64,000 bases of DNA, from the NCBI RefSeq assembly GCF_000235885.1, contig NZ_JH379375.1:1-64000 (forward strand), read 5' to 3'. Origin of the DNA: Leyella stercorea DSM 18206. GTDB taxonomy: Bacteria; Bacteroidota; Bacteroidia; Bacteroidales; Bacteroidaceae. Positions within the stretch are counted from its first letter, which is position 1. Every line of letters begins with the position of its first letter. This document shows positions 15,293 through 52,133 of the stretch, one piece after another. A program made the position numbers and the translations under genes. Below the pieces are notes generated by a model. That model saw only the letters and a program-made list of their open reading frames with translations. It was not told the origin of the DNA and made no database searches.

Positions 15293-15493
15293 CGTGCATC
15301 AGTGTTCATGCTCCTCACTCTTCTGATGATACAGCTGTAAGGTCGGATTTCCCGCTTCGTTTCTCCAGGCATACAGCCATAGCAGTGCCCCTGTCTGTTG
15401 CATACGGATTGCCTCCTTGCTTACAACCTTTGTTCCATTGTTTGGCCCCGTCTTTTTCTGAATTGAGCTATTTGAAAGCCACTTATTTTCTAA

Positions 15494-17599
15494 GTAGGTC
15501 TGCGGGGTTTCCCCCGCTTTCCCCTTCAAGAACCGTGCATGCGACTTTCACCGCACACGGCTCGTGTAATTCTTTTAATTATCTCTCGTTCTAAATAATC
15601 GGCTCTGTGTGCTGTCATGCACTGCATTTGAGCGGGCGTGTACGGCTTTTTGTTTCTTGCCGTTGCTTGAAGTATTCGTCGTATCGTGGGTCAAACGGAT
15701 TGGCTTTCGACCTTATCTTCGTGTAGCGGAGTATCGGTGTGTGGGTCAGTTGGATAAGGCGATAGATTTTCTCCTTGCCTTTCTTATCCTTGCCCTTTGT
15801 TCCAAATATCCATCCACGTTTCCCGTCGTGTTGCCAATACTTCTTCTCTATCCACTTCAACGACTTGTCATGGTGTCTTCTTATCGACCATCTCCTCAGT
15901 TGGAGGAAGATTATGTGGTCGAGCTTGGAGAACACCTCCTTCGAGGACACATATCTGTAATAGTTCGCCCAACCGCTTATCTTGGGGTTGAGTTTGCCAA
16001 TTACATCCGTCTGCTTGGCTGAGCGCATTTTGTATATTACTTCATGTGTCGACTCCGCAAACTTCTTCTGATTCTTCTTGCTCGGTTTAATCAGCAACAT
16101 GCCGTTGCCATATTTCCGTATGTTGAAACCGAGGAAGTCAAAACCATCCTTGATATGTGTTATCAGCGTCTTTTCCTCTGAGAGTTCCAAACCTCTGTCC
16201 TTTAGGAATACGATTAGCTCTGACTTTATCTCTTCAAGTACCTCCTTCGTATCGCCAGTGACGATGAAGTCGTCTGCGTAGCGTACGAGGTTTACCTTGT
16301 TGGAGTAGGTCTTGCCGTTGTCCCTTCGGGTTGAGTGTTTGGCTACCAATGCTTCCATCCCATCAAGTGTGATGTTCGCCAATGTCGGGGAGATTATTCC
16401 GCCTTGGGGTGTCCCCTCGTCGGTCATGTGGAACACATTCTTTTCTATCACTCCCGCCTTAAGCCACTTGCGGAGCATTTCCTTGTCGATTATGACATTG
16501 TCAAGCAACCATTCGTGGCTGATATGGTCGAAGCATCCCTTTATGTCACCCTCAAGCACCCATTGAGCCGAGGTCTTCTTGTGAAGGCACTTGTATATCT
16601 GGTCTGTCGCATCCGCACATGAGCGGTATTTGCGAAAACCATAGGAGTTGCCGTCGGCAAGTGTCTCTGCTATGGGTTCAAGTGCCATTAGGAAGAGGGC
16701 TTGCATAGCCCTGTCCTTGATGGTAGGGATTCCGAGCGGGCGCATCTTGCCGTTTTTCTTCGGGATGAAGACACGGCGAAGAGGCTTTGGCTTGTAACCC
16801 CTCGTTGTCAAAGAGCTGATGGCTTTGTAGCGTCTTATGGGAGTGAGCCAGGTTTCCTTGTCAACCCCAGCAGTGCTACCGCCCGAGTTTGATGTCACGC
16901 GTCTCACTGCCAATGCCTTGGCGGAGAACGAGCTAATCAAGATGCGTTGGAGAGATTTCACCTTTCCAATGCGGTTTGCCTTTAGAGCCTCTACTATTCT
17001 GACTTGCAGCTTGCGTACCTCCTTCTCACACGACACCCAGTTGATGGTCTGCCATGCGGTCAGTGCGGCTGAGGATGCACACTTGGCTTGCGCCTCGTCC
17101 AATTGTCGTTTCTTCATTTACACAAGTTCTACATTTCATTTCGTAGCGAATTACCTGATGGAAGTCTGCCCGCTTTCGCGTGGGGTGATGTCCCAACCCC
17201 TATCCCCGCCATTACAGAGGGGCATTCGCTTTCTCCATCGTCATTTACCTACAAGCCGTTCGGTTGCTCTTGCGATTGACTTACCTGTTCCCATAATGAG
17301 ATGAGGAGACCTATAGGCTTACCATGTTCCGTACGGATAACTTCGACTGATTTAGGACCCGCCTATCCACCGGTGGAGCGACATCCGTGTGGCTATTAGA
17401 TAAACATAGCCAACCTATCCACTTGCCGTTTTGGCATGGCTCATAAACATCCGTGAGCCAATTCTTTGTCACGATGGTTGGTAACGGCGGTTACTTTACG
17501 TTGTCCTTGTCAGTCAGCCTAACAGCTGCGTCTTGTGATGTTCAAGACCTCGCCATATTGTCCCGAAGGCTTCGCACCCAGTCGTTGCCAACTACGCAC
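15494..17599 (-). mobile_element. Group II intron
   Basis: The minus strand starts at 17599 with GTGCGTAG, matching the 5' consensus GTGYG, and encodes a reverse transcriptase. Near the 3' end it carries a domain V hairpin (GAGCCGTGTGCGGTGAAAG...GCACGGTTC, about 15533-15567), a domain VI-like stem with a G-rich/C-rich pair, and an ending GACCTAC at 15494. About 2.1 kb in all. GGTTGGCTA in the 5' part of the intron could pair with TAGCCTACC in the 5' exon (EBS2/IBS2-like, one mismatch). Ends are inferred by eye, good to a few bases. Confidence 0.8.
15615..17117 (-). CDS. ltrA: Group II intron reverse transcriptase/maturase
   Basis: A 500-residue intron-encoded protein that helps splice the intron and copies it at new sites. 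The RT core contains LGIPTIKDRAMQALFLMALE, GDIKGCFDHISHEWL, GTPQGGIISPTLANI and the catalytic NLVRYADDFIV; the maturase (X) region follows (KISGWANYYRYV). The tail (SKANPFDPRYDEYFKQRQ) is where an HNH endonuclease would start in related proteins, but no Cys/His zinc motif follows, so the endonuclease domain is absent. Confidence 0.92.
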   Translation of the reverse strand: MKKRQLDEAQAKCASSAALTAWQTINWVSCEKEVRKLQVRIVEALKANRIGKVKSLQRILISSFSAKALAVRRVTSNSGGSTAGVDKETWLTPIRRYKAISSLTTRGYKPKPLRRVFIPKKNGKMRPLGIPTIKDRAMQALFLMALEPIAETLADGNSYGFRKYRSCADATDQIYKCLHKKTSAQWVLEGDIKGCFDHISHEWLLDNVIIDKEMLRKWLKAGVIEKNVFHMTDEGTPQGGIISPTLANITLDGMEALVAKHSTRRDNGKTYSNKVNLVRYADDFIVTGDTKEVLEEIKSELIVFLKDRGLELSEEKTLITHIKDGFDFLGFNIRKYGNGMLLIKPSKKNQKKFAESTHEVIYKMRSAKQTDVIGKLNPKISGWANYYRYVSSKEVFSKLDHIIFLQLRRWSIRRHHDKSLKWIEKKYWQHDGKRGWIFGTKGKDKKGKEKIYRLIQLTHTPILRYTKIRSKANPFDPRYDEYFKQRQETKSRTRPLKCSA

Positions 17600-17685
17600 G
17601 CTTCGGTAGGCTACTCTTAACGGAATAAGAGGTTCATTAGTTTCAAAGAACAATTATCTGTACGACTTCATGTCGCAATTACCAT

Positions 17686-33054: not shown

Positions 33055-34506
33055 ATGGCAACACCAAAACAGGTTATGGATTTCCGACCATCTAAGGGAA
33101 TCACCACAGCACAGAGCAACGAGCACCAACGCCGTTGGACGGAAAAGGGTTGGGGATCCGCTGAATCAACAGGCAACTACGACCGCAGCCGTGAGCGGCT
33201 CAACTTCGAGGTTCGGGGCGGCAAGGTTTGTCCTATAGACAAGAGCCGAAGCATCCCGGAGCGCATGGCAGACATCCTGCGGAGCCGTGGAATCAAAGAC
33301 CCCAACGAGGGACTGGCAGAGCCACGCTTCCGCACAGTGGTCAATTTCATCTTCGGAGGCTCACGAGAACGTATGACAGAATTGGCATTCGGTGACCAGA
33401 AGGTGAATCTCACTCACGGAGCGGACAATTCGCATCTAACCCGATGCAAGGACATTGAGGAATGGGCAAAGGATGTTTACCGCTTTGTTGCGGACAAATA
33501 CGGTGAGGAGAACATCGTCGCTTTCATCTTACACTTGGACGAAACCAATCCGCACGTTCACTGCACCCTCTTGCCAATCAAGGACGGCAAGTTTGCATAC
33601 AAACAGATATTCGCCGGAAAGGACAAGTACGAGTTTTCTGCCAGGATGAAAGCCCTGCACAGCGAATTTGCCGATGTCAACAAGCGTTGGGGCATGGAGC
33701 GCGGAACTTCCGTCTCAGAGACGGGAGCACGCCACCGCACCACCGAAGAATACCGCCGCCAGCTGTCAGAACAGTGCACCACCATTGAGCAGTCCGTCGC
33801 CACCCATCAGCGGACACTCGCCTCGCTCCAATCGGACATCCGTCTGGCAGAGCGGAGAGTAAAAGGACTCACCTCAATGGTCAACAACCTCTTGCAGGAG
33901 AAGGCTGAGAAGGAGGCGGCACTTGCTGAATTGCATCGGCAGATTCTTGCAGGTCACGACAATCCTGATGCTCTCCGTCAGCAAGTCCAAGAGCTGGAGC
34001 AGGAACTGTCCGCTATCCAGTCGAAACTGGACGACAAGCAGGAGAAGCTCTCAGAGGCTGACCGCAAGCTCGATGCCCTGCGTGAGGAGATGACCGCCAT
34101 GAAGGAGCGCACGGAGGAGTTGCGGCAGGAGGCACACAGATATTCCGATACTATCCGACAAGGTGCGGACACCGTTCTCAGAAATGCCCTTCTCGAAAAC
34201 ATGGTCAGCGAGTTCTCCGAACGTGTGGCACGGCTTTCCAATGAGGGCAAGGACGTGTTTGACGGTTCCCTGCTTCAGGCCTTTGCGGAGAATGGAACGG
34301 AGGTGATGTACTGTGCCACGCTTCTATTCCTCGGCTACGTCGATGATGCCACCACCTTTGCCGAAGGTCATGGCGGTGGCGGCAGTTCGTCCGACCTCAA
34401 ATGGGGACGTGACGATGACGAGGATGAACGCGCTTGGGCACGCCGTTGCATGATGAAAGCTGCACGCATGATGCGCCCCTCTTCCGGCAAAAGGAAGAAA
34501 CGATAA
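33055..34506 (+). CDS. mobV: MobV-family relaxase (Pre/Mob)
   Basis: A 483-residue relaxase that nicks oriT and pilots the strand. The MobV signature is clear: HLDETNPHVHCTLLPI (about residues 162-177, the metal-binding His residues) preceded by RTVVNFIFGGSRERM. Residues 235-395 form a long coiled coil (repeats of leucine and charge). The tail is Arg/Lys-rich. Start ATG follows AAAAGGAAATAGGTT. The element is therefore at least mobilizable. Confidence 0.88.
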   Translation: MATPKQVMDFRPSKGITTAQSNEHQRRWTEKGWGSAESTGNYDRSRERLNFEVRGGKVCPIDKSRSIPERMADILRSRGIKDPNEGLAEPRFRTVVNFIFGGSRERMTELAFGDQKVNLTHGADNSHLTRCKDIEEWAKDVYRFVADKYGEENIVAFILHLDETNPHVHCTLLPIKDGKFAYKQIFAGKDKYEFSARMKALHSEFADVNKRWGMERGTSVSETGARHRTTEEYRRQLSEQCTTIEQSVATHQRTLASLQSDIRLAERRVKGLTSMVNNLLQEKAEKEAALAELHRQILAGHDNPDALRQQVQELEQELSAIQSKLDDKQEKLSEADRKLDALREEMTAMKERTEELRQEAHRYSDTIRQGADTVLRNALLENMVSEFSERVARLSNEGKDVFDGSLLQAFAENGTEVMYCATLLFLGYVDDATTFAEGHGGGGSSSDLKWGRDDDEDERAWARRCMMKAARMMRPSSGKRKKR

Positions 34507-36107: not shown

Positions 36108-37370
36108 TTATCCGTGTTTCTCAGTACTTGACCAGTCAAGCAGGAAGTCATATATACTCATTATCTGTATGCCGTTTTCGTCGCTCCACTGCTTGGTATG
36201 TTCTCCCACGATCAGCAGTTTGCGGAAAGAGTCATCTACAAGACGCAACGACCGTTTCTCCTGTTCCATCTTTTCTGCATCGGGCATACGCCACGCCGAC
36301 TGGATGTAGATCCGCTCGCTCCCTTTGTTGCAGACAAAATCCACTTCCAATGTCACCCTCTGCTGCTTTCCTTCCGTATTCCTCACTCGATGATAGACGT
36401 TACCCACATCCACGAGCCATCCTCGCATACGCATCTCATTGTAGATGACGTTCTCCATGATATGTGTCGGCTCGCTCTGACGGAACGACAGAATAGCATT
36501 CCTCAGACCTACGTCCTGGTAATAATACTTGGACAACGAACCTATGTATTTCCGTCCTTTGATGTCGAACCTTTCGGATTTTTCGATAAGGAAAGCATCC
36601 TGCATATATTCCAGATAAGCCGACACTGTCTTGTCGGTTATGCTCTGCACATTGCTTACGGACTTGAACGTATTGGCTATATTCAGTGCATTGACAGGTG
36701 CTCCTATACTGGATGCTACGGTCTTCGACAATTCTTCAAATTCAGGTCTCAGTTCTATGTTGTTCCGCTCGTAGATGTCACGTAGATATACCGTGCGATA
36801 AAGGCGACGCAGGAAATCAGCCTTCTTCTCATCCCCAACCTGTGTAAGTAGTTGCGGCAAACCTCCGTACAGTCTGTATTCAGCCCAACCGTCTTCTTTC
36901 GAACCATCATACACCGTCATGAACTCCTTGAAGGATAGTGGCCACACATGTATCTCGTCACCTCTGCCTCGGAATTCCGTCACCAGGTCAGAGGACAGGA
37001 AACGCGAGTTGGAGCCTGTGACATACACATCCGCCCCTTCGGTAACTGACAAGGAAGAGAGCACCTCTACAAAGTCTTCCACCTCCTGCACCTCGTCGAT
37101 GATGATATAATAAGTCTCATAGTCAATCATCATCTTTTCCACCCAGTCCAACAGGTAGTCCGGGTTCTTGAACTCTCTGTTCTTCCTACTCTCCATGTCG
37201 ATGACGAGAATATGGTCTTCTCTCACGCCCTCATCCAATAGATGCTGATGAAAGAGTTTCTTCAGAAGGAACGACTTGCCTGAACGTCGCAATCCTGTGA
37301 TTATCTTTATGAGCCCGTTGTTCTTTGAACGGCTCAACTGTTCTATGTATCTATATCTGTTTACTATCAT
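36108..37370 (-). CDS. AAA ATPase with DUF4143 domain
   Basis: A 420-residue protein with an N-terminal AAA_14 module and C-terminal DUF4143. The P-loop is GLRRSGKSFLLKKLF near residue 27, Walker B TYYIIIDEVQEVEDF near 91 and sensor YVTGSNSRFLSSDL near 116. The C-terminal part has LEVDFVCNKGSERIYIQ, a restriction-endonuclease-like core that lost part of its catalytic pattern. Such single-gene ATPases are very common in Bacteroidales; their role is unknown. A moron-like cargo gene on the strand opposite to its neighbours. Confidence 0.8.
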   Translation of the reverse strand: MIVNRYRYIEQLSRSKNNGLIKIITGLRRSGKSFLLKKLFHQHLLDEGVREDHILVIDMESRKNREFKNPDYLLDWVEKMMIDYETYYIIIDEVQEVEDFVEVLSSLSVTEGADVYVTGSNSRFLSSDLVTEFRGRGDEIHVWPLSFKEFMTVYDGSKEDGWAEYRLYGGLPQLLTQVGDEKKADFLRRLYRTVYLRDIYERNNIELRPEFEELSKTVASSIGAPVNALNIANTFKSVSNVQSITDKTVSAYLEYMQDAFLIEKSERFDIKGRKYIGSLSKYYYQDVGLRNAILSFRQSEPTHIMENVIYNEMRMRGWLVDVGNVYHRVRNTEGKQQRVTLEVDFVCNKGSERIYIQSAWRMPDAEKMEQEKRSLRLVDDSFRKLLIVGEHTKQWSDENGIQIMSIYDFLLDWSSTEKHG

Positions 37371-38475: not shown

Positions 38476-38535
38476 GTTAGTACCTACTATGAGTAGTAAA
38501 GCCTACGATTAGTATATACTACGATACTACTCTCA
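38476..38535. repeat. TAGTA repeats, third cluster
   Basis: GTTAGTACCTACTATGAGTA, then TTAGTATATACTACGATACT: the same TAGTA/TACTA pentamers as around parA-parB, 16 kb away. Possibly a second centromere-like site. Confidence 0.55.
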
Positions 38536-40455
38536 TCTTCGGAAAGCGGACTTGGCAACGTGCTCCTCTTGTACCTCTTCCTTCTGGTACTCCTCCATGT
38601 CAAGCAGTTGCTCATACGCAGAGCTGATGTTTGCGTCCATAGAATGGTTGTGGCTGAAAGGGAAGGTATGCTTCACAGAGAGTCCTGCATTGGTCACAGT
38701 CCCCACATCCAGGCTATCCTTATCCTTGTTATATTGCAGGTTCAGCAAACCACCATTCGGCATTTGGAATATCGGCATTTTTCGCTGCGCCAATTCCGAA
38801 AACTCTTCGGCGGTCATCTCCCTCGCCACAGCCTTCACGTCCTCACTGGCACGTCCTATGCCATAGCGAGTGATATGGTCACGCACTTCTTGCTCCGTAT
38901 GCTTCAGGAACACCTCATACGTACCGCCGACACTCCCGTTATAGACCACTGCAAAGTCCTTGTCCTCTATTAGCAGGTCATCGCCTCTGTTCTGGCACGG
39001 CTTCCTGTAGGTCTGCTCCTCGTCCATGCCGTTCCCGTCATAGTATTCCTTGGCAAGCGTCAGCAGTCCTTGATAGTCACCTTTCTCCTTTAGCTTATCC
39101 AGTTCCGATGTGTCATCCGTTGATTGGAGATAGGCGATGGAGGCATAATAGACGTTTTCTTTCGATTGTGAAGGCTCTGTCAGGCTTTTGTACTGGGCAA
39201 AAGCCTCCTGATAATTGGTGTCAAGGTCTTTGCCGTGGTCGTAAGGAACAGAGAGTTTCACTTCCAGACCGTTACTCGTCGGCACAGCAATCTTTACAGA
39301 GTCCTCCTTCTCATGATGCTGGATATATACAGCAGAACCATTATATGCCAAGACTGCATGGTCGCCGTCATCTATGGATAGATAACTTTTCCCTTGCCCG
39401 TTTTCCTGCTCAGCCTTTTTCTCCTGGTCTATCTCCATAGCAATCTTGTCGATATGCTGCGTGAGCATTGAGGTAGCTTTTTTCACATCGAGTAGCGTGG
39501 TCTTGATGAACTGCGGCGACTCCTTCAGCGAATCCAGCCAAGACTTCAAATAGGCAGCCGAATCTCCTTTCAGATGCTTTGTCATGCCATACCGCTGAGC
39601 GGTCAGCGCAGCCGTCAGTTCTGCCACCAGTTCCTCGCGTGCATACTCTGCCGAGCCGAAGGTAGCGGGCTTGATGCGGTCTAACTGTCCCTCCGCACCC
39701 GTGGAGTGTCCCATCTCGTGGAAAAGGTTCGAGTAGAAAGACTCCCCATCCTTGAACTGCCTTTTCTCAGGCATCACAATCTCATTCTTGCTGATGGAGA
39801 AATAGGCGGAATCACCGAACATCGGTTTGATGGGACATATCCAACGGTTGTCCGCTATCATCCTATCCACGGGTTCAAAGGCAAACTGCTCGTCCTTCTC
39901 TACCTTGGGCATCGAGTATTCCTGTTCCAGTTTCTCCCAAAACTCTGGTCTGACCTCCTTCAGGTTGGTCTGCGCCACATTGAAGACATGGTAAGTCTGA
40001 AGCTTTGGATATACATTGTACTTTTCGCGCTCTTCCTGAGAGAGCAGTTTGTAGTCCTCCCACTTGATGTGTTCCTTTGTTTCCTTATTGACCACCGTAA
40101 ACGTGGTGAGCATCACGGGGAAAGAATGCTCACCTTTCAGTACTGACACACGGGGCTTCTGTTCCTCGTCTTTCTTGCCAGTTTTGTTAAACTGCTGTAT
40201 GCGGTCGAAGGTACAGAAGCGAGGAATCTTGTAACCCTCCTTCTCGCAATGCAGGAGCAACATCATAGCGTTCATGCCATTATATTCTCGTCCGTTCAGG
40301 TTTTTCGGCCATTGCAACGCACCTTCAGTAAACCAGGGCTTTTTCCATCCGTCTTTGCCCGACAGCGACTGAATACGCTCAATCATCATATCGGCAAACA
40401 GGTCGAGTGCCTTGTCTTCGGCACTCGGACCTTCCTTAGCATAAGGCTTTCCCAT
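38533..40455 (-). CDS. ArdC-like antirestriction protein with zincin domain
   Basis: A 640-residue protein. The N-terminal ssDNA-binding (DUF1738) part shows MMIERIQSLSGKDGWKKPWF and NLNGREYNGMNAMML; the zincin-like peptidase part carries LFHEMGHSTGAEGQLDR with an intact HExxH. Related ArdC proteins coat incoming single strands and protect them from host restriction. The C-terminal 300 residues contain two related segments (YNGSAVYIQHHEK, YNGSVGGTYEVFLKHTEQE), perhaps DUF-type repeats. I start at ATG 40455. Last gene of the long minus-strand transfer operon. Confidence 0.75.
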   Translation of the reverse strand: MGKPYAKEGPSAEDKALDLFADMMIERIQSLSGKDGWKKPWFTEGALQWPKNLNGREYNGMNAMMLLLHCEKEGYKIPRFCTFDRIQQFNKTGKKDEEQKPRVSVLKGEHSFPVMLTTFTVVNKETKEHIKWEDYKLLSQEEREKYNVYPKLQTYHVFNVAQTNLKEVRPEFWEKLEQEYSMPKVEKDEQFAFEPVDRMIADNRWICPIKPMFGDSAYFSISKNEIVMPEKRQFKDGESFYSNLFHEMGHSTGAEGQLDRIKPATFGSAEYAREELVAELTAALTAQRYGMTKHLKGDSAAYLKSWLDSLKESPQFIKTTLLDVKKATSMLTQHIDKIAMEIDQEKKAEQENGQGKSYLSIDDGDHAVLAYNGSAVYIQHHEKEDSVKIAVPTSNGLEVKLSVPYDHGKDLDTNYQEAFAQYKSLTEPSQSKENVYYASIAYLQSTDDTSELDKLKEKGDYQGLLTLAKEYYDGNGMDEEQTYRKPCQNRGDDLLIEDKDFAVVYNGSVGGTYEVFLKHTEQEVRDHITRYGIGRASEDVKAVAREMTAEEFSELAQRKMPIFQMPNGGLLNLQYNKDKDSLDVGTVTNAGLSVKHTFPFSHNHSMDANISSAYEQLLDMEEYQKEEVQEEHVAKSAFRR

Positions 40456-40461
40456 AGTCAA

Positions 40462-41067
40462 TTAACCATTATAGGGCTGCGGAACATATTCGCTCATTTC
40501 AGACACTCGGCAGGAGAAGTCCAGTTTGTCATTGAAGACACTGACAGACAATGCCCCTTTGATGTTCGCTTTCACGCCTGGTTGCAGCCATGCCTCGCAT
40601 TTGCCATCGAATAGGAAGAAACTTACCCAGATGTATTCAAATCCGTCCTGTACTTTCTCTGCGCTGAAAGCGGAGAACTGGCAGTACGGCACACCATTCT
40701 TGTCCGTCTTGTCCTCAATGCTCTTGCCCACCTTGCCGCGGAACTCCATCACGCCCTTGATGCAGTCCTCTGCCTCGTCAGGCTGGTGGCTGATGCTGCT
40801 TGCCGACAGGTTGAAATAAAGGACATCGCCCCATTTTCTTGGTACCAATACACCGGCTACCTCAATGCGTTCGCCGATGTTGCAGCTGCCCACCTCCGTC
40901 AGTGTCCCATCTTTGATGACCGACACCTCGATGGTCTTGTTAATCCCGCTCTTCGCTGGAATGACTACGTTCATGGCAAAGCTCACGAATGCCTTGCCCT
41001 CCTTGTTCGTGCGGCAGGTCGCAGCCTTGCTGACCGTTCCGCACACTGTTACATTACATTTGATCAT
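40462..41067 (-). CDS. OB-fold single-strand-binding-like protein
   Basis: A 201-residue protein with two probable OB folds. The first has VTVCGTVSKAATCRTNKEGK, FVSFAMNVVIPA and GERIEVAGVLVPRKW; the second repeats this plan (VMEFRGKVGKSIEDK, VKANIKGALSVSVFN). It resembles SSB/primosomal-type binders rather than canonical SSB. It lies directly upstream of the ArdC zincin gene (7 bp). Confidence 0.6.
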   Translation of the reverse strand: MIKCNVTVCGTVSKAATCRTNKEGKAFVSFAMNVVIPAKSGINKTIEVSVIKDGTLTEVGSCNIGERIEVAGVLVPRKWGDVLYFNLSASSISHQPDEAEDCIKGVMEFRGKVGKSIEDKTDKNGVPYCQFSAFSAEKVQDGFEYIWVSFFLFDGKCEAWLQPGVKANIKGALSVSVFNDKLDFSCRVSEMSEYVPQPYNG

Positions 41068-41139: not shown

Positions 41140-41322
41140 TCAATCATCATATACTAGCGCATGTATCAGTTCATAGACTATCCACGCTGCTATGATAAGT
41201 TGGAAGCCGAGATAGATGATGGCCACGGTCTGACCGAAAAGCCATTGGGTAAGCATGAAGTGTCCTGCCACAGCTACCATACCCACCAGCAATGTACACA
41301 GATGACTTGCTATCCTTTTCAT
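41140..41322 (-). CDS. Small two-helix membrane protein
   Basis: A 60-residue protein with two hydrophobic helices (LLVGMVAVAGHFML, QLIIAAWIVYELIHAL). It overlaps the peptidoglycan hydrolase gene by 4 bp. A paralogue with the same layout sits at 57744-57932 (shared WxVYExxHA near the end). Might act as a holin-like or immunity partner, an inference. Confidence 0.5.
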   Translation of the reverse strand: MKRIASHLCTLLVGMVAVAGHFMLTQWLFGQTVAIIYLGFQLIIAAWIVYELIHALVYDD

Positions 41323-42875
41323 TTCCTTTGCAGATTTTGTTGTTGACTCTCAGCCTCCATCCCTTGCTCGAAGTTCTGCGAAGCCTGCTGTGTCGCCACG
41401 ATGCCTGTCACCATTCCCGCAATCTTCGTCCGTTTGCTTTCTTCCGACAGATTGGCATTGCCCAAAATGAGCGACAGGCGGTTCATCTCCGAGGAGGTCA
41501 GTTCACGGTCAATCTTCACCGTACCGCTCTCTGCATGAAGCACAGTCTTGCCGTTCTCACCCACAGTAATGGTGCATTGCCTCATGCCTGGAACAAGCGA
41601 GGTCAAATCTACGAGCCGGTTGGCTGCCATGGCAGAGATAAGTCCTTTTTGTCGTTCCTCATCATTGCTGTCAATCTGCGCTGCCAACATCATCAGCGAC
41701 ATGAAGGTGGTCATCGCCATGTCGAGTATAGGGTCATTCGTTCCCGAAATGCCCACGCCGCTGTCCTCCGAGGAAAGGATTTTCTTCATCCAGTCCTCCG
41801 ACGAAACCTTCTGCTCCTGTGGCGCATTGCTCTTGTATTTTGCCAACAGGTCATTGCCGTTATGCAGGGCCTGTAGCTTGATGTTGCCTTTCTGTCCGAT
41901 TTCTGCCAGATAAGCGGCTGGATCCATATCCCTTTTTGAGCCGTCAGCCGATACACTCTTCACTCCGAAATGCAGATGCTCGCCAGTGGTTCTGGTGCCG
42001 GTATTTCCCGACACCCCCAACTTCTGACTGGCATTAACCACGTCACCTACCTTTACTGCTATGTCAGACAGATGCAGGTAGGAGCATTGCACCTTGCTGC
42101 CATCCTCACGGCTGTATTCCACGGTGACGGATTTCCCTCCTGCCGTGTTCGCATTATGGTTCACCGCCACCACCTTGCCGCCGTTCTCCGTGGCCAACAC
42201 CGCCTCATGGTTCGTCTTGATGTCAATGCCCTTGTGCATCTGCTGCTTGGTGGCATCCATCGGATCCTGGCGATTGCCGAAAGGCGAGGTGATGAAGAGA
42301 AACTCCTCTCGCTCCACAGGAAAGGAATACCCGGCAGACTGCGGTACATGGGCAGCAGGCATTTCTCTACGAGGATTATTCTCCACCCCGAACGACCGAC
42401 CTTCTGCCCGCATCTCAGCCATCACCTCACTGTCATACTTGTCCAGTCCGTTGGCTTCAATGATGCGCTGCAGACTTGCAGCATAACCGCCGCCCGTGGC
42501 ATAGCCGGCACGCTCAATGCCCTTCGTCCAACCCTTGTAGTCGTCAGGCGACAGCGTGAAGCACTGCGCATAACGCTTGTTCTGCTTCAGGAACTGCGAG
42601 TGATGCTCATAACTGTCACCCACGCTTTTGTACTTACAGAATTTCTCGTTGGGCCTATCATCCGTATAGACTCCATACTCTCCGCCATTCTTCAACCACG
42701 ATGCCGTAGCCTTGATGCCAAAGTGGTTGTTGCATTCGCGCGACAGTTGGCTCTGTCCGTTGCTGCTCTCCAGTATGGCTTGCGCCAAGATGACGGAGGC
42801 AGGAATCCCATACATCCGCATCTGTTCTTTGGCTTCCTCCGCATATTGTGCGGCATACGCTGCGTTCTTTCCCAT
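41319..42875 (-). CDS. Bifunctional peptidoglycan hydrolase: GH73 glucosaminidase and M23 peptidase
   Basis: A 518-residue protein. Residues 1-150 form a GH73 glucosaminidase (VILAQAILESSNGQSQLSRE with the catalytic Glu, CNNHFGIKATASWL). Residues about 190-345 form an M23 peptidase (ITSPFGNRQDPMD, QMHKGIDIKTNHEA, GTRTTGEHLHFGV). No signal peptide is visible, so it must be exported by another route or with the transfer machinery. It would open the cell wall for DNA transfer. Four bp downstream of the ArdC-like/MutS gene. Confidence 0.85.
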   Translation of the reverse strand: MGKNAAYAAQYAEEAKEQMRMYGIPASVILAQAILESSNGQSQLSRECNNHFGIKATASWLKNGGEYGVYTDDRPNEKFCKYKSVGDSYEHHSQFLKQNKRYAQCFTLSPDDYKGWTKGIERAGYATGGGYAASLQRIIEANGLDKYDSEVMAEMRAEGRSFGVENNPRREMPAAHVPQSAGYSFPVEREEFLFITSPFGNRQDPMDATKQQMHKGIDIKTNHEAVLATENGGKVVAVNHNANTAGGKSVTVEYSREDGSKVQCSYLHLSDIAVKVGDVVNASQKLGVSGNTGTRTTGEHLHFGVKSVSADGSKRDMDPAAYLAEIGQKGNIKLQALHNGNDLLAKYKSNAPQEQKVSSEDWMKKILSSEDSGVGISGTNDPILDMAMTTFMSLMMLAAQIDSNDEERQKGLISAMAANRLVDLTSLVPGMRQCTITVGENGKTVLHAESGTVKIDRELTSSEMNRLSLILGNANLSEESKRTKIAGMVTGIVATQQASQNFEQGMEAESQQQNLQRK

Positions 42876-42879
42876 AAGC

Positions 42880-45336
42880 CTATCTCCTTAGACTGGTGTG
42901 TTGTTCTGTTTCTTGACTTTCCTGTGCCATCTGCTTTCCTGTCTCTTTTCCAGGTGACACCATCTCCGTAATTCCACGCTTCGATGATGTTGTCTGCTTC
43001 GGCATTTCCAACTGGTCACAGATGGCCACCCGTTCACCAGCACGAATGAGCTTCGGCAGATAGGTGTCGAGGGCATGATATGGGAATCCTGCCATTGCCA
43101 ACGGCTTGCCTTCATCATCCTTGCGCCCATTGCTCTTTGTCAGCGTAATACCCAATATTTTGGATGCCTTCACCGCATCATCCTTGTAGGTCTCATAGAA
43201 GTCACCGCAGCGAAACAAAAGAATGGCATCAGGATGCTTCTTCTTCAAGTCAAGATATTGTTGGACAAGGGGAGAGACAGCAGCCTTGACAGCCTTTTCA
43301 TCCTTCTTTTCTTCTTTCTTTTCCTCTTGTTTCTTCTCTTCCCTTTGTTCAGAGCTTTTATCTTCCTTAAGTACCACTTCCTTCTGTTCATCATGCTTAT
43401 CGACAATTGCCGTCTCCGCTTGCTTCACCTCCGTCGCTTCTTCCTGCTTCTCTTGTGTACTTTGCTCGACATTGTTGTCTTTCTGCAATACATCAGCAAA
43501 CAGCGAGGCGGCAAGGTTCTGCTTGTAGGAATCCCTGTCAGGAGCCACCCACAATCGTTGCCATTGTGACGGACTGACACTTCTCGGCTGCAACTTCTTG
43601 CCGTCAATAGTGGCTGCACACAGGCATTCGCCCGATTTGGCACGGAATACTGCCACACGCTGGATGCGGTTCAAATCAACCTCCTGCTCATTACCTCCGA
43701 AGATGTCCACCTTCAGGTCGGGTTTCGCCTCTGCCATAGCATAATACTTCTGTGCCAGTTCCTCACGCACACGCTCGATGTTGTCCATCGACTGCTTCAA
43801 GGTGGTGAAGAAATGATTGAGGTCTCCTTTGTCGGGATAGACGGCAAAGCCCTCCTTACCTTCGGGCTTGATGTACAATGCCCACCGCTCCTTGTCATCC
43901 TTTACCAACTGCACATTGTCGAAACCGATGTCACGGCTGTGGGTTACGGCCTCAGAAGCATCCAACGAGGATAGGTCTTCGATAGACCAGTTGCTCAGTC
44001 TTGATACCGTGATTTTCTTGTCGGCGAAATAACTGTCGTCGGGACGGAAGCCCAAGGCTCCGTCGGGATTGTAGAAACGCACGTTGTCATAACCCTCTTT
44101 CTGCAAGGCATTGGTGAAGCGTTGCTTGTTCATGCCCTTGATCTCGTTGTTCACCTCCAACGATGCACCCTGTGGCAGCACCACATCGGCGGTCTTGCTG
44201 GCATCATCACGCACGATGACCACAGTACGCTGCTCCTCGTTGGGATGCTGCTTGATTTCGTCTGCTACGAAGTAGTGGTTGGGCAACTGCACCTGTATCT
44301 GCGCCGTCTCTCGCTGATGCTGGTCGGTGGCATACTCCACCTTTTCACCCAGTTCGGCTTTCTTCAACACCTTCAGCGCACCGTTCACCTCACTCTCGAT
44401 GGCATCAATCAGACAAGGGTCTTCCTTCAGTTCCCTCGTCCAATAGTCCACCATGCTAAGGCTGTCCTTTGACAGACGGGCAGGCAGTCCCAGTTCGAGC
44501 ATCTTCACGCCCGAAGCTATCTCAGTGATGAGTCGTTCCTTCTTCACGGCATCCTCCGACGGGGCTTTGCCGTTCTTCATGACCATGCCCTCACGTGCCA
44601 ACCGCTGCTGATGACCGGTGGCAGACACCAACTGACGCATCATCTCCTGTACATAGTCATTGTAGTGCTCGAAGTCACGCTGCCGTGGCAGGTAGATGAC
44701 ATCCTTCTCGGTGTCGTAGTGCGCCACACCCGTGCCGTCCTGACGTACATTCACGAGGTTGTCCTTCATCTTCTGAAGGAATCCGTTGACGCACCCATGC
44801 AGCTGCTTGTCCTCCTTGTCGCCATAACCTCTATCCTCCACCGTGCCATCCTTCTTCAATGCCGTAGTGTAGGCTGTTTCGTTAGCCATAGGCAGTAGCG
44901 TCTGGTCGATATTGAACAGCACACGGATCTCACGGTTTTTCACTCCCTTGTACTGCTGTTTGTCCTGTTCCGACAGTTCTGCGTATGCCTCCTTGGTGAT
45001 GACATCGTCGGGATTGTTGCGGTTGACGTACTTATTCCAATTGTAATACAGGAACGGCACACCTTTCTCATGCTCCCTCACGCTCTCACCCCGTGCCTTC
45101 GCTTCGGAGAACTGCGTAAACAGATTGCTCTTGCAACCCTTGGCATCGGAGTCAAGGGCAAGGACAAGGGCATTGAACGGACTGACCGAAAAGCCCTTGG
45201 GATAGAGCTTCGGATAGAGTTTGCCGCTTGCATTCAACCAATGTCCCTTGGCATCCACCGCACTCGTCAGTGCCTCAGTGAGCAGCGACACCTGCTTCTC
45301 CGCCGTCCGCTTCTCAAATTCTGATTTCTCTTTCAT
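42880..45336 (-). CDS. ArdC-like protein fused to a MutS mismatch-recognition domain
   Basis: An 818-residue protein. The N-terminal part resembles ArdC-like DUF1738 proteins ([38 protein letters not shown]); at the zincin position it reads [19 protein letters not shown], so HExxH is lost. A highly charged linker (residues about 630-685) leads to a C-terminal MutS domain [56 protein letters not shown] and VSPGK. The Phe-x-Glu mismatch motif (FYE) is kept, while all other MutS domains are missing. It could sequester or sense mismatched DNA. Confidence 0.75.
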
Positions 45337-45418: not shown

Positions 45419-47218
45419 TCACTGTATTCCCCTCGGTCGCACCACGCTCTCCCGTGCCTGCTCTTCGTACTGCATTGCTGCCATCTGTCGCATCTGGTCG
45501 TTCTTGGCAAGTATGGCGTTAGCCAATGTATTCAGCGGCAATGCCCCCGACTGATGCGCCCCAATCACACTGTCAGGCAGTTGAATGGTACAAGGCACAT
45601 GGTCAATGTTGGCAACGAGACACCGCCCTTGCAGCATCGGGTTGCTGATACGAGGATTGAGTGGTTCATCAGGATATTGGCGGTACTGAATGCGAGATGC
45701 AGCAGGACTAACTGTAGGTGCAATGCCTTCCTGCTGTTTCCTGCCCAGCACCTCATGTCCCGCTTTGTTGAGCAGATTGGCACCTCCCATACCCATCAAC
45801 AGCATCTTCAGTATAGGATTCTTCACGAACATTCCAGCCACGATAGAGGCCAAAGGAAGGAGGCTATTGTCCATATTCAGCGATTTTGTCTTGCCAGTGA
45901 ACAGTCCCACCAGTACATCGGGCAGCATCGCCAACACATAACCAAGGTTCTTGCCGATGTCTGAAAAGCCGTTCAGTCCAAAACTCTGCAACAGCCCGTC
46001 CCATCCATTTTCGTTTGTTTGTAAGGCTGTTTCCTCCTGCTGGACTACAGATGGTGTTGCCTCTTCAGTCGATGAATCAGGAGTTTCTTTCGGTTCTGCC
46101 TTCTTCTCCTTCTCAGCCTCTGCATCCAGTCTCGCCTTAACCTCCAGATACTCGTCTTCCTGTCCAGGCGCAACTATCAAGGGCACATCCTTGTACTTGC
46201 CTGTACGTTTGGTTGCTTCGTTTCTCTGAGGGTCAAGGAACGTACCTTTGTTCCAAGGAAAAGAGGTCTGCTCGGTTTGTTTCGTCCAATCCATAAAAGT
46301 GATATTGCTCGTGGGAATCTTGTTCTTGAAATGGCTGTTGGTAGCCTTGATATAGCTGTTCTCGTGGTTCTTGATGACTTTTGCCTGTTTGCGGAATGAG
46401 GCGAAGACGTTGGTGCCCGTACCGAAAACTCCCTTGCTGATACACTCCTCGACACAGACCTCTTGGCTGCTACCTTTCTTGCTTAGGTGCTCCATGCCGA
46501 CATTCATCACCATATCGATACCGACAAACTTGGCGAAGGTTGCCCATGAGCCAATCCCTCCCATGGCCACGACATCGGCACCCGCTCCGGCTGCCCATCC
46601 CGCTGCCTTCTCTGTTCGAGAGGGCTTATAGGCTGCCTCTCCTTTGGCTTCTATCTCTGCGGCAAGGGGTGACTTGTTCAGTTCGTAGGGCAGACCGAAC
46701 AGACTGCTTTGTGCCGCCTTGCGGATGATATAGTCGGCAGAAGATGTTGGCATACGGTCTTTCACCATTTTTTCTATCATCAGCTGCTCCATGCGGTGAT
46801 CGATATAGGCGTATGCCAAATCACAACCGAGTTGTTTAGAGAGTGCATCGTACCGCTCTCGTCCTATCTCCGTCACCACCGCCTTGCGCCATTCCTCAGC
46901 CATCACGGCAAGGTCACGCTGCATATCCTTGTTGCCGACAATAGCCTCCTTGCACATCGCCAGATAGTCTTCGGTGGTCTTGCTGTTCCACTTGCCTGTA
47001 ATCTTCAGCGTGGCGTATGGGTCATCACCAGGCATATTGGCAGTGGCCAATGAGCGTAGGATGCCAGCCGTACTGTTGGAGTAGGCTCGCATCTCGTCTG
47101 CCTGTCTGTTGGACAAGTCCCGTTGCACCCTGCCCATCACGGGGGCAAGGTGACACCCGAAGTAGTCGCCCATCAGACGCTCTATCTCTGCGAATCGCTG
47201 ACTGTTCTTAACTGCCAT
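45419..47218 (-). CDS. Hypothetical transfer-region protein
   Basis: A 599-residue protein. The first 250 residues are helical and charged, then a Gly/Ala-rich hydrophobic segment (GWAAGAGADVVAMGGIGSWA), a charged low-complexity linker (AEAEKEKKAEPKETPDSSTE) and, near residues 430-500, a further hydrophobic region (MLPDVLVGLFTG, LASIVAGMFV, LLMGMGGANLL). This resembles large membrane-associated proteins of Bacteroidales conjugation loci. No family assignment. It lies in the transfer operon with 9 bp to the next gene upstream. Confidence 0.5.
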   Translation of the reverse strand: MAVKNSQRFAEIERLMGDYFGCHLAPVMGRVQRDLSNRQADEMRAYSNSTAGILRSLATANMPGDDPYATLKITGKWNSKTTEDYLAMCKEAIVGNKDMQRDLAVMAEEWRKAVVTEIGRERYDALSKQLGCDLAYAYIDHRMEQLMIEKMVKDRMPTSSADYIIRKAAQSSLFGLPYELNKSPLAAEIEAKGEAAYKPSRTEKAAGWAAGAGADVVAMGGIGSWATFAKFVGIDMVMNVGMEHLSKKGSSQEVCVEECISKGVFGTGTNVFASFRKQAKVIKNHENSYIKATNSHFKNKIPTSNITFMDWTKQTEQTSFPWNKGTFLDPQRNEATKRTGKYKDVPLIVAPGQEDEYLEVKARLDAEAEKEKKAEPKETPDSSTEEATPSVVQQEETALQTNENGWDGLLQSFGLNGFSDIGKNLGYVLAMLPDVLVGLFTGKTKSLNMDNSLLPLASIVAGMFVKNPILKMLLMGMGGANLLNKAGHEVLGRKQQEGIAPTVSPAASRIQYRQYPDEPLNPRISNPMLQGRCLVANIDHVPCTIQLPDSVIGAHQSGALPLNTLANAILAKNDQMRQMAAMQYEEQARESVVRPRGIQ

Positions 47219-47227
47219 ATACCTTGT

Positions 47228-47551
47228 TTATATATTATACTGCTGTAATATCTGTTCCTTTGTCTGCTCGATGGCATTGTGATATATCTCCATCTGCTTA
47301 GGATAGTGTTCCTCCAACCATGCGTCCTTGTCCACTTGGCAGTGGATGAACTGCACGGCCATACGTTCCTCAATCTCCACGGAGGGTTCCCCCTCTTCCT
47401 TACCATTGAACCATGCCTTTGTCCACCATCTCACGCCAGCCCGGTCGGGATAGACGCTCACTATCCTCGGAATGTCGAAGCTCTGGATATCCACGTCCAA
47501 GTCGGCAAGAGGGTCGATGATGCCGTCATGCGTCAGGGCTTGCTCTTGGAG
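47228..47551 (-). CDS. Downstream frame, probable -1 extension of the M23-like gene
   Basis: An open frame of about 105 codons that has no ATG near its beginning (first plausible start is TTG at 47500). It is continuous, through a -1 shift at the A9 run 47552-47560, with the preceding gene, giving KKLQEQALTHDGIIDPLADL and so on to the end EQILQQYNI. Acidic, helical C-terminus (MEIYHNAIEQTKEQ), no known domain. Either a programmed frameshift product, a mutated gene or a homopolymer sequencing error. Confidence 0.5.
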   Translation of the reverse strand, partial: LQEQALTHDGIIDPLADLDVDIQSFDIPRIVSVYPDRAGVRWWTKAWFNGKEEGEPSVEIEERMAVQFIHCQVDKDAWLEEHYPKQMEIYHNAIEQTKEQILQQYNI

Positions 47552-48354
47552 TTTTTTTTTAACACCTCGTCCATCGTGGAGAGATATACCTGATGTCGCA
47601 TGGCAAGATAGTTGAGAAAGTCGGCAATGAGCAGGTTCTGCACCTTAGTCGCCAAAGGCATACAGCGGTTGCCGATGCCCAAGGGATTAGCCATGCTCGG
47701 CATGGTCTCGTAGAAATAATGCTTGCTCGCTCCCAACGAGAAGATGTTTCTCAACGACTGCTCCGTATGTTCGGGCAGAGAGTATGCTCCTTGTTGAAGG
47801 TCCTCGAAGTAGGAGGGAAGGAAGCGGAGCATCAATGCCTCTATCTCCTGACGGTCGGTGTCGTAGGGTGAAGGGATGTTCATGTCCAGTTCATTGATGC
47901 CCATTTGGGAATTGTGCTCCAATGCCTTGATATTGCCGTAGAGCATGGTGAGGAACTCCAACGGATTGATTTCCTCTCCGTCAAACCTCACCTCCATGTG
48001 CAGCAGGTCGCCACTGATGGCGATGGTCTGACCGGCCTTGACGCTTTGGGAGAAGTTGGCGAAGACATTGGAGAGATGCCTGTAAGTCACTTCGTATTTG
48101 CCGTAGCGGATGGTCTGGTAGATGCCATGCTCCGCGTCCGACCCAATGGCAGAGACGGTTCCCGTTGCCACCGCCGACAGCAGGTAATGGTTCACTGAGA
48201 AGTCTATGCCGTGATGGAAGAATGTTTCTCCCGTCACGGGATTTTTCTGCTCTCCGTAACCCAAGGACATCTGCACGTCCTGCTTTATAGGCTCCTCAAA
48301 CGGCATACAGTAGCCGCTCGATGAGCGCAGTATCATTTCTTCTGTATATCTCAT
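47533..48354 (-). CDS. M23-peptidase-like protein (degenerate), ends in A9 run
   Basis: A 273-residue protein. The N-terminal 140 residues match the M23 fold: QMSLGYGEQKNPVTGETFFH, HHGIDFSVNHYLLSAVATGT and SGDLLHMEVRF. Of the metal-site residues the first His/Asp (HGIDF) is retained, while the second site reads LLHMEVRF instead of HLHFE, so zinc binding is partial. No signal peptide. The last codons run through TTAAAAAAAAAC into a stop; see the frame at 47228. Third cell-wall-related gene in the transfer region. Confidence 0.6.
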   Translation of the reverse strand: MRYTEEMILRSSSGYCMPFEEPIKQDVQMSLGYGEQKNPVTGETFFHHGIDFSVNHYLLSAVATGTVSAIGSDAEHGIYQTIRYGKYEVTYRHLSNVFANFSQSVKAGQTIAISGDLLHMEVRFDGEEINPLEFLTMLYGNIKALEHNSQMGINELDMNIPSPYDTDRQEIEALMLRFLPSYFEDLQQGAYSLPEHTEQSLRNIFSLGASKHYFYETMPSMANPLGIGNRCMPLATKVQNLLIADFLNYLAMRHQVYLSTMDEVLKKNSKSKP

Positions 48355-50528: not shown

Positions 50529-50994
50529 ATACGCCCTTTCTTCGTTTGTTCGTTTCTACTCTTGTTCGTATCACACTCACCACGTCATAGCTGTTGCTGA
50601 TGCCGGTCATTTCCAGTTTCGGTGTCGTTCTATCCATCGACAACACGGTCACGCTTTTCAGTCCGCATAACTGTTGTATCAATGTCTGATGCTCGGCAAA
50701 GTCCACCACTCGGTACAACTCCATGTAGTTCACGCTCCGCTGAAACACTCCGTGCTCACAGATGAGTTGCTCGCTCCCGATATGGTAGCGGATACTCCTC
50801 AGATAGATGAATCGGTAGAGTAAACAGAGGGAGAACAGGAGGCTGAAGACAAGCAACAGGGTACTATATGCACAACCGGGCAATCCTCCGATTAGGAGCA
50901 TTGCCACGCACAACAGCAACAGAGGCAGTTCGTTGATGAAAAACTGTCCGATGCTGGGGCACAAGGTGATGATGCTATTATCTTCTTGTCTCAT
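50509..50994 (-). CDS. Bacterial PH-domain membrane protein
   Basis: A 161-residue protein with two close transmembrane helices (LLLLCVAMLLIGGLPG, LLLVFSLLFSLCLLYRF) followed by a bPH2 domain (RYHIGSEQLICEHGVFQRS, MELYRVVDF, LKSVTVLSMDRTTPKLEM). This is the YdbS/YdbT architecture. It is translationally coupled to the primase-like gene (overlap of 4 bp). Confidence 0.7.
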   Translation of the reverse strand: MRQEDNSIITLCPSIGQFFINELPLLLLCVAMLLIGGLPGCAYSTLLLVFSLLFSLCLLYRFIYLRSIRYHIGSEQLICEHGVFQRSVNYMELYRVVDFAEHQTLIQQLCGLKSVTVLSMDRTTPKLEMTGISNSYDVVSVIRTRVETNKRRKGVYEITNR

Positions 50995-52133
50995 ACGCTT
51001 CTATGATATGTGTTCTTTTCTTCTTTTTCCCTTTGTTTCTCTGCCTTGCCGGCTGCGATAAACTCGGCATAGTCGAAGGTATCTGGTTCGCCCTTGGCAA
51101 TCAGTTCTGCTGATTTCTTGTTGAGCAGCGCATCGTTCCAGTCCTTGTAGCAACCCAATGGATGATAGGCTTGCACATGCTCGTGACGGAAGCCCATCTC
51201 TGCTGCCACCTTCCTGAAGTTTGCAACAAACTGCCGCCCTGCATCGTCCTTGTCAAAACCCAAATAGTGCCGTGCGTTGGGAGTAACGGACAGAAGTCCT
51301 CGCATCTGTCCCTCGGTGGGTGTGCCGCCCGTAGATACATACACCATCTTTACAGGATTTATCTGATACTCTGCCATGGCATCGTAGGCACTCTCAAACC
51401 ATACAATTTCGCTTGCTTTATCCAACGGCTCGCCCGTGAGGTTGGCAATCCACAGTCCTTCACTGCTGTTGCTTCCTTCTGCCTTGCCCTTGTAACCGCC
51501 GCTACCGTCCATCTTCGGTCGTCCTCGTTCCTCAAAGCCCACAGTCTTGTCGGGTGTCTTGGGCAGTACAAGCGGAAAGGCAAGGTTGGCAAAGGTAAGT
51601 CCATCCGTCCGATGCTTAGTAGCCAGACAGAAATGCCGATGAAAAGCATACTGCGTATAGAGGTCGATGCCTCGGAACTTAAAATAGGGATAAAACCTTT
51701 TCTGCGTTTCCCTGTCCTGCGGATTGAACTTGTGGATGTCGTAGTCATTCAGGTTGAATGGCTTTCCGTCCTTTCTTGGTTCTGTAATCTTCGATGGTCT
51801 GTCCTCTATGGGTTGGTTGAGCAGTCGGTTGCAGACGAGGTTGACGAGTCGGTCAGGAGACATTCCCACCTTGTTCTCTGAAAACATTTCTGGATGCTCC
51901 TTGATGAACGAAATGACATTATACACCTTCTGCTGCGGTGGTTGGAAGCAACATTTCCCATTCTGCGTGACAATGAACTTATCACCACGCACCCGTCTGC
52001 CCTCACTGTCAGTACGCACATACGACGGATAACGCAAGCCATCTCTCTTGTTCAGATGATACCCTGCGTCCACCAGTACTTCCTGTATGCTCAACCTGTC
52101 CAGAAAGTCATCGTATGTCAGTTCACTACTCAT
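50991..52133 (-). CDS. Toprim/CHC2-like primase-related protein
   Basis: A 380-residue protein. The N-terminal region (LSIQEVLVDAGYHLNKRDGL, FIVTQNGKCCFQPPQQKVYN) resembles the DUF3991-type head of mobile-element primases. The Toprim domain follows at about residues 235-340: EIVWFESAYDAMAEYQ supplies the catalytic Glu and YLGFDKDDAGRQFV the DxD. It may prime the transferred strand in the recipient. No helicase or RNA-polymerase basic domain is present, so it is a short form. Confidence 0.7.
   Translation of the reverse strand: MSSELTYDDFLDRLSIQEVLVDAGYHLNKRDGLRYPSYVRTDSEGRRVRGDKFIVTQNGKCCFQPPQQKVYNVISFIKEHPEMFSENKVGMSPDRLVNLVCNRLLNQPIEDRPSKITEPRKDGKPFNLNDYDIHKFNPQDRETQKRFYPYFKFRGIDLYTQYAFHRHFCLATKHRTDGLTFANLAFPLVLPKTPDKTVGFEERGRPKMDGSGGYKGKAEGSNSSEGLWIANLTGEPLDKASEIVWFESAYDAMAEYQINPVKMVYVSTGGTPTEGQMRGLLSVTPNARHYLGFDKDDAGRQFVANFRKVAAEMGFRHEHVQAYHPLGCYKDWNDALLNKKSAELIAKGEPDTFDYAEFIAAGKAEKQREKEEKNTYHRSV

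Follow-up and report, generated by a model that had tools for sequence, protein, structure and literature searches.

An ArdC-like protein without its zincin motif and with a C-terminal MutS domain I, encoded beside an active-type ArdC on an integrative conjugative element of Leyella stercorea

Introduction

The closest described relatives of the protein studied here are the polyvalent proteins of Iyer et al. 2017 (PMC5512222, text available in part), among which the three-domain architecture of ArdC-N, an MPTase and MutS domain I (MutS-I) is already published. According to the available text, MutS-I is accompanied by ArdC-N in about 80% of cases, and polyvalent proteins are called the sole site of MutS-I outside MutS. 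ArdC of R388 binds ssDNA and duplexes with ssDNA overhangs, and its protease-dead form still overcomes HsdRMS in the recipient (PMC7213743, available in part). In E. coli MutS, Phe36 and Glu38 contact the mispaired base in a duplex by stacking and hydrogen bonding, and mismatch discrimination is abolished by F36A or E38Q (PMC3848065, available in part). In MSH3, swapping domain I swaps DNA specificity, and the fold reads loops and junctions without Phe-x-Glu (PMC11912836, available in part).

Here we analysed a gene from a window of Leyella stercorea DSM 18206, that is, the whole 64,000-nucleotide stretch of DNA under study, whose 818-aa product joins a MutS domain I to an ArdC-like front part. 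We describe its domains, its operon, its host element, its homologs and the occurrence of MutS-I in viral contigs, and weigh several explanations of what the MutS-I domain does.

Results

Domains and motifs of the 818-aa protein

The gene and the parts of its product are as follows.

42880..45336, minus strand: dead-ArdC/MutS-I gene, 818 aa with an ATG start, encoding ArdC-N, a dead zincin (MPTase-PolyVal), a middle region with no assigned domain, a charged linker and MutS domain I
44959..45285, minus strand: ArdC-N, ssDNA-binding-type domain, aa 18-126 (Pfam PF08401 ArdcN, E 4.2e-7, 30.6 bits against a cut-off of 22.6)
44407..44754, minus strand: MPTase-PolyVal zincin fold without HExxH, aa 195-310 (Pfam PF18818, E 1.4e-13; motif check)
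44623..44637, minus strand: RQLVS (aa 234-238) in place of the HEMGH of active ArdC (motif comparison)
42946..43272, minus strand: MutS domain I, aa 689-797 (Pfam PF01624 MutS_I, E 2e-35; PDB MutS; model and fold search)
43192..43200, minus strand: Phe713-Tyr714-Glu715, the Phe-x-Glu mismatch wedge (alignment to E. coli MutS)

All three Pfam domains scored above their curated cut-offs, MutS_I reaching 121.8 bits against 20.6. Two NCBIfam models of full-length MutS matched the protein at profile positions 2-121 only, of 793 and 840, and remained far from significance, scoring 139.6 and 127.8 bits where the cut-offs are 480 and 641.7; none of the connector, lever, clamp and ATPase domains of MutS was found with these models, indicating that there is no MutS domain beyond domain I. 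In a sequence search of the PDB the top matches were E. coli MutS at chain positions 11-130 (2.7e-28). In an AlphaFold2 model, the domain folds into five strands and three helices, ten-residue blocks across residues 11-90 having a pLDDT of 92-98, and all 50 matches listed for this model by Foldseek against the PDB were chains of the MutS family. The protein thus holds MutS domain I and a few residues of the following segment, and nothing further of MutS.

The wedge motif is intact (G711-D712-F713-Y714-E715), F713 and E715 aligning with F36 and E38 of E. coli MutS. In the zincin fold, HExxH is replaced by R234-Q-L-V-S238, and the third-ligand Glu is kept (E272, aligned with the Glu of the active neighbouring ArdC). 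A preliminary description of this DNA, made from the sequence alone, had already proposed a C-terminal MutS domain I with an intact Phe-x-Glu and nothing else of MutS, joined to an ArdC-like front that had lost its zincin motif, next to an ArdC of the active type; the searches bear it out on each of these points, including HEMGH in the neighbouring protein.

Pairing of dead and active ArdC in a conserved operon

The gene lies among the following genes of the same strand.

38533..40461, minus strand: ArdC with intact HEMGH zincin, same operon (Pfam, motif check, conserved operon)
40462..41067, minus strand: SSB-like protein, between the glucosaminidase and ArdC genes (Pfam SSB 23.2 bits, under the cut-off of 26; conserved in the operon)
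41319..42875, minus strand: glucosaminidase and M23 peptidoglycan hydrolase, same operon (Pfam; conserved in the operon)
45419..47218, minus strand: 599-aa conserved protein without significant Pfam match, upstream in the operon (Pfam scan; conserved in the operon)
47533..48354, minus strand: M23 peptidase, same operon (Pfam; conserved in the operon)
50991..52133, minus strand: Toprim (primase-like) protein, upstream (profile match, operon comparison)

The gene order M23 peptidase, 599-aa protein, dead ArdC, glucosaminidase and SSB-like protein was kept in all 28 loci compared, two of which are near-copies of the window and some of which contain split or interrupted genes (L195, L198, L205, L207 and L209). 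In 27 of the 28 loci an ArdC with HExxH comes next, the one in L210 carrying HEMTHSSG. In the remaining locus, L008 of Segatella, the HExxH ArdC is fused N-terminally to the dead unit, and the downstream gene resembles ArdC weakly. In L198 and L209, both from genome G718, about 2.3-2.6 kb separate two parts of the partner ArdC gene, which looks like the effect of an insertion.

Among 63 open frames matching the front part with more than 200 bits, HExxH was present in four (L008, L090, L091 and L087). In L008 and in L090 and L091, the last two being near-copies, the motif belongs to an N-terminal ArdC unit, and this HExxH ArdC forms one polypeptide with a dead unit bearing MutS-I; in the giant frame of L087 it occurs at two places elsewhere. 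Chance decay of the zincin in a single gene was rejected, as the homologous units among these 63 frames are likewise without HExxH. The recurrent dead/active pair, fused in some lineages, argues for the two proteins working together, and on the basis of operon and fusion we infer that the dead ArdC is a partner of the active one. Since the protease of R388 ArdC is dispensable against HsdRMS, according to the available part of that report (PMC7213743), a dead zincin is compatible with an ArdC-like job.

Host element and its spread

The window is part of a contig of 106,628 bases, of which positions 13310-101017 are common to genome G636 from another species with another genus code. The common blocks are long and about 99.9-100% identical, the gaps between them including a stretch with a group II intron and about 63-68 kb. 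A tyrosine integrase, a VirD4-type coupling protein, a TraG P-loop ATPase and TraM are encoded on the same contig beyond the right end of the window, and a relaxase lies within it:

33055..34506, plus strand: MobV-type (Mob_Pre) relaxase, same element (profile match)

The region is an integrative conjugative element. Its size of roughly 88 kb, and with it the position of its ends, follows from the shared extent and not from attachment sites. The reverse transcriptase of the group II intron is encoded at window 15615-17117, and the stretch 15489-17679 is missing from the otherwise near-identical copy in G636, which makes it an insertion polymorphism. Adjoining the ArdC operon, window 36108-37370 encodes a 420-aa protein that matches the PADLOC candidate defence family PDC-S01 (E 6e-113).

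Copies of aa 1-647 of the dead ArdC protein that are 100% identical (rounded) were found in six further species of three further genus codes, and a homolog at E <= 1e-15 was present in 37 of 399 Bacteroidaceae genomes, including that of the window. The genome itself has two further such elements (L010 11261-13510 and L011 11359-13632, on contigs C78 and C147), with Phe-x-Glu lost in both. The window protein was also found unchanged on a 105-kb contig recorded as a virus in IMG/VR, IMGVR_UViG_3300011977_000415 (L109 and L189), which is probably the integrative element of the window rather than a virus; IMG/VR thus includes integrative elements, and some of its records are not phage.

States of MutS-I in sister proteins

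MutS-I is optional at this slot of the operon, where Phe-x-Glu is kept, Phe-x-Glu is replaced or the domain is absent. The motif is kept at the C-terminal slot in the window clade and in L063, L071-L074, L081-L083 and L088, and it is lost in, among others, both further copies of the same genome. The slot proteins of L054, L060/L061 and L066-L069 gave no MutS-I match at E <= 10. With Phe-x-Glu or the whole domain missing in sister proteins, the operon can evidently do without mismatch reading. Prevotella-type proteins (L008, L009, L087 and L089-L091) have an internal MutS-I between ArdC-N and MPTase. The giant protein of L087 (5559-17000; open frame of 5505 aa) carries two copies of MutS-I, one with Phe and one without, and a second, very weak MutS-I-like copy (16 bits) lies behind the first in L080 (4246-6909).

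We compared column entropy between 12 slot domains with Phe-x-Glu and 14 motif-free ones, the latter including L078 and L080, which keep Phe without Glu, and L086, which keeps Glu without Phe. Left out were near-copies (L003, L047, L059, L072, L075 and L090), both domains of L087, the weak second copy of L080, the short ORFs 10-95 of L090/L091 and the 13-bit remnants of L058/L062. The largest rises in entropy in the motif-free domains were at E. coli positions 36, 74, 55, 75, 38, 16, 35 and 73. Framework columns, among them 21, 24, 25, 32, 37, 44, 51 and 80, were invariant in all 14. A structure model of a motif-free domain took its alignment mostly from Phe-x-Glu sequences, on which its MutS fold leans.

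Conservation in the motif-bearing slot domains falls on the Phe-x-Glu pair and on the AGFPYH loop. This pattern bears on the proposal, put forward from the domain company in the available text of PMC5512222, that MutS-I gives a further contact to ssDNA beside that of ArdC-N, and may do so at short ssDNA patches once the DNA has entered (Iyer et al. 2017). As Phe36 and Glu38 touch the mispaired base in a duplex (PMC3848065, in its available part), the conservation of Phe-x-Glu and AGFPYH is not explained by simple ssDNA binding, and we consider this proposal improbable as an account of the domain.

In 10 of 15 motif-free C-terminal slot domains we found the common sequence YR(L/M/I)YN(E/Q)DA, with Tyr-Arg in place of Phe-x-Glu, and Arg occupies E. 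coli position 38 in 8 of 14. These features would suit a reader of ds/ss junctions or loops like eukaryotic MSH3, for which Phe-x-Glu is optional and in which the sister tips have turned to Tyr-Arg. In the available parts of the respective papers, MSH3 is without Phe-x-Glu (PMC3848065), its Tyr-Lys pair works at the ds/ss junction (PMC11912836), and MutS F36A still binds G-quadruplex DNA (PMC3437207). However, Tyr-Arg is likened to the MSH3 pair by sequence, the relaxed constraint in motif-free lineages (see below) fits slow decay equally well, and the window protein itself carries Phe-x-Glu; as an account of the domain as a whole, junction or loop reading therefore seems to us decidedly unlikely. 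Based on loop and junction reading by MSH3 without Phe-x-Glu and on the G-quadruplex binding of MutS F36A, by analogy the motif-free sisters may recognise some other structure rather than being in decay.

Selection on MutS-I and its history

In proteins that keep Phe-x-Glu, MutS-I is under purifying selection as strong as that on the remainder of the chain; in motif-free proteins this selection is relaxed. For three close pairs with Phe-x-Glu, N/S was 9/43 in MutS-I against 47/177 in the front part (p 0.70); for three close motif-free pairs it was 24/26 against 76/288 (odds ratio 3.5, p 8e-5). Where computable, pairwise dN/dS of the domain was 0.00-0.13 in Phe-x-Glu pairs and 0.14-0.29 in motif-free pairs, the latter values suggesting that the motif-free domains are relaxed yet not neutral. 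The domain might instead be a relic that docks another protein, or a passenger being lost, and it is indeed missing or degraded in several operons. Against this, it is under the same purifying selection as the rest of the protein in the window clade and in two other Phe-x-Glu pairs, and it is retained in divergent elements and in phages, which leaves this explanation very unlikely.

In a tree of the front part, Phe-x-Glu forms occur both within and outside motif-free clades, a distribution that points to a probably ancestral motif with more than one loss, although the root is uncertain and one relevant branch has a support of only 81/47. The window MutS-I shares 63% identity over domain I with MutS of its own genome and 41-44% with two paralogues, which raised the question of recent capture or replacement from the host mutS. 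This was rejected as the simplest reading on the basis of the domain tree, in which 36 mobile-element domains stand on one side of a branch and 27 Bacteroidales MutS domains on the other (84/87, not strongly supported), and in which the nearest rows to the window are other mobile-element domains. In the domain tree the window groups with L071/L081/L088; in the front tree it is sister to the motif-free clade. Slow evolution could account for this conflict, as could exchange between elements.

MutS-I in viral contigs and elsewhere

Bacteroides phage B124-14 encodes a freestanding MutS-I of 81 aa with F-x-E (ADFCEMY), ORF064 (CCE45993.1; L096 2543-2788), which is annotated as a 'putative mismatch repair protein' and lies near resolvase and nuclease genes. 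IMG/VR was scanned with seed patterns built on either GDFYE or the GFPxHALD loop, and the best 80 of 568 loci were analysed. Five full-length MutS (later domains confirmed), two edge-cut frames assigned to MutS and the window copy L109 were dropped, and the remaining 72 viral MutS-I formed 42 clusters at 80% identity.

Phe-x-Glu was present in 71 of these 72, a seed-biased sample that overstates conservation; it was present in 57 of the 58 found by the second (loop) pattern and in 11 of the 12 found by the loop pattern alone, the loop itself being conserved together with the wedge. With the window copy counted, 15 of 73 viral MutS-I from these best 80 of 568 loci have an open frame no longer than 160 aa from stop to stop; these we call free. 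ParB-like proteins ending in MutS-I (ParB_N, HTH_ParB and MutS-I) were found in viral contigs L115, L129 and L166, and these together with the freestanding forms contradict the statement, in the available text of PMC5512222, that polyvalent proteins are the only MutS-I site outside MutS. Other fusions are ArdcN, MPTase and MutS-I in L119, an 827-aa protein with an LPD29 match under the cut-off in L147, and, on a Chroococcidiopsis plasmid, MutS-I within a strawberry-notch-type protein. An IMG/VR search with B124-14 ORF064 returned only itself, a search with the PcfK-MutS-I domain found nothing, and query A1 gave two loci, one of them the element of the window. PHROGs held no separate family for freestanding MutS-I, 10 of 10 matching the long phrog_8439.

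Families near the viral MutS-I (loci from the best 80 of 568) include ArdA, DNA methylases, RadC, RecT, PcfK and portal protein. The largest neighbour cluster, with an ArdC representative, covers 15 of 73 loci (L109 counted); since it was built by single linkage and its member L115 has no ArdC-N in the whole record by Pfam scan, proximity to ArdC was judged by Pfam scans of the records instead. ArdC-N was over the cut-off in 9 of 42 records (one per cluster, from the best 80 of 568), absence weighing little as the records are fragments; many viral MutS-I proteins are thus without ArdC in sight, which speaks against a link with ArdC. One of the nine is a fusion. In the other eight, whose records span 36-140 kb, a separate ArdC-N is 1.0-5.2 kb away from MutS-I; with genes placed uniformly, such closeness would be expected in about one of the eight (Fisher combined p 4e-5). 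As phage genes are grouped in modules, the proximity reflects a shared neighbourhood and not interaction.

The viral forms bear most on the possibility that MutS-I is a decoy that covers mismatches and blocks host MutS, so that diverged incoming DNA recombines or mutates, a form of the anti-mismatch-repair function that the preliminary description had suggested for this operon. Such a role would fit the intact Phe-x-Glu and the constraint on the domain in the window protein, the recurrence of the motif in the seed-biased viral sample, the freestanding phage domains and the RecT family among their neighbours. On the other side, the protein has no MutS domain past domain I, sister elements have lost Phe-x-Glu or the entire domain, the motif is missing in two of three copies within the same genome, and the element has its own integrase and no obvious need for homeologous recombination. 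The loss of Phe-x-Glu in sister elements is evidence against an essential anti-mismatch-repair role. What plausibility the idea has comes mostly from the freestanding phage forms, and nothing in the operon requires it; we regard it as unlikely. A narrower role in reading mismatches or DNA distortion is compatible with the data for the window clade, given that constraint on MutS-I matches that on the remainder of the protein in Phe-x-Glu forms and slackens in motif-free ones.

Discussion

The reading that we favour, at about even confidence, sees in the protein a catalytically dead ArdC subunit that belongs to an establishment/antirestriction operon and carries an optional DNA-structure reader. 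Together, operon, domains and constraint, along with the ArdC-N genes near MutS-I in viral records, suggest a protein that binds DNA, acts in partnership with the active ArdC and has an antirestriction role. The dead ArdC paralogue would act with the active ArdC and the SSB-like protein during establishment in the recipient, binding the DNA of the element and shielding it against host restriction. The C-terminal MutS domain I would be a borrowed, optional reader of DNA structure. With the Phe-x-Glu wedge kept, the reader of the window clade is expected to prefer kinked duplex with a mismatch or an extrahelical base, possibly in folded incoming single strands or in fresh second-strand duplex, while the ArdC-N part would hold the adjoining ssDNA.

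A broader and more doubtful, though possible, reading is that MutS-I is a portable reader of DNA distortion in Bacteroidales mobile elements, either freestanding (in phages, roughly 80-150 aa) or joined to ArdC-like or ParB-like proteins. It would have at least two specificity classes, Phe-x-Glu as a mismatch wedge and Tyr-Arg for MSH3-like junction or loop reading, and the freestanding phage forms would blunt host mismatch repair or mark unusual DNA in takeover.

If true, this would mean that the part of MutS that reads mismatches has a life of its own in mobile elements. The presence and absence of Phe-x-Glu within one genome and at one operon slot provide natural pairs for testing the module acting alone, and the recurrent pairing of dead and active ArdC is a direct handle on the mechanism of ArdC-type antirestriction.

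Compared with known systems, the window protein is closest to the polyvalent proteins of Iyer et al. 2017, which in the available text combine the same ArdC-N, MPTase and MutS-I in one chain, in Bacteroidetes and on a conjugative element (PMC5512222). Like that class, which is encoded by conjugative elements or phages, it belongs to an element with integrase, coupling protein, TraG, TraM and MobV. Different from that class, in which a catalytic MPTase releases the domains, the window protein is without HExxH; the zincin is dead across the homologs examined and paired with an active ArdC, and the state of Phe-x-Glu varies by clade. The dead/active pairing, the motif states and the freestanding and ParB-fused MutS-I are new relative to the available text of PMC5512222, and none of them was found in the open-access literature searched. 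R388 ArdC likewise has ArdC-N and a zincin fold, with a protease activity that the available part of PMC7213743 gives as dispensable for antirestriction, whereas the window protein is without HExxH and has about 500 extra residues including MutS-I, its own antirestriction role being putative. With MutS it shares domain I and Phe-x-Glu, and it differs in having no connector, lever, clamp or ATPase. B124-14 ORF064 shares MutS-I with F-x-E, but is a freestanding protein of 81 residues, unlike the 818-aa protein of the window.
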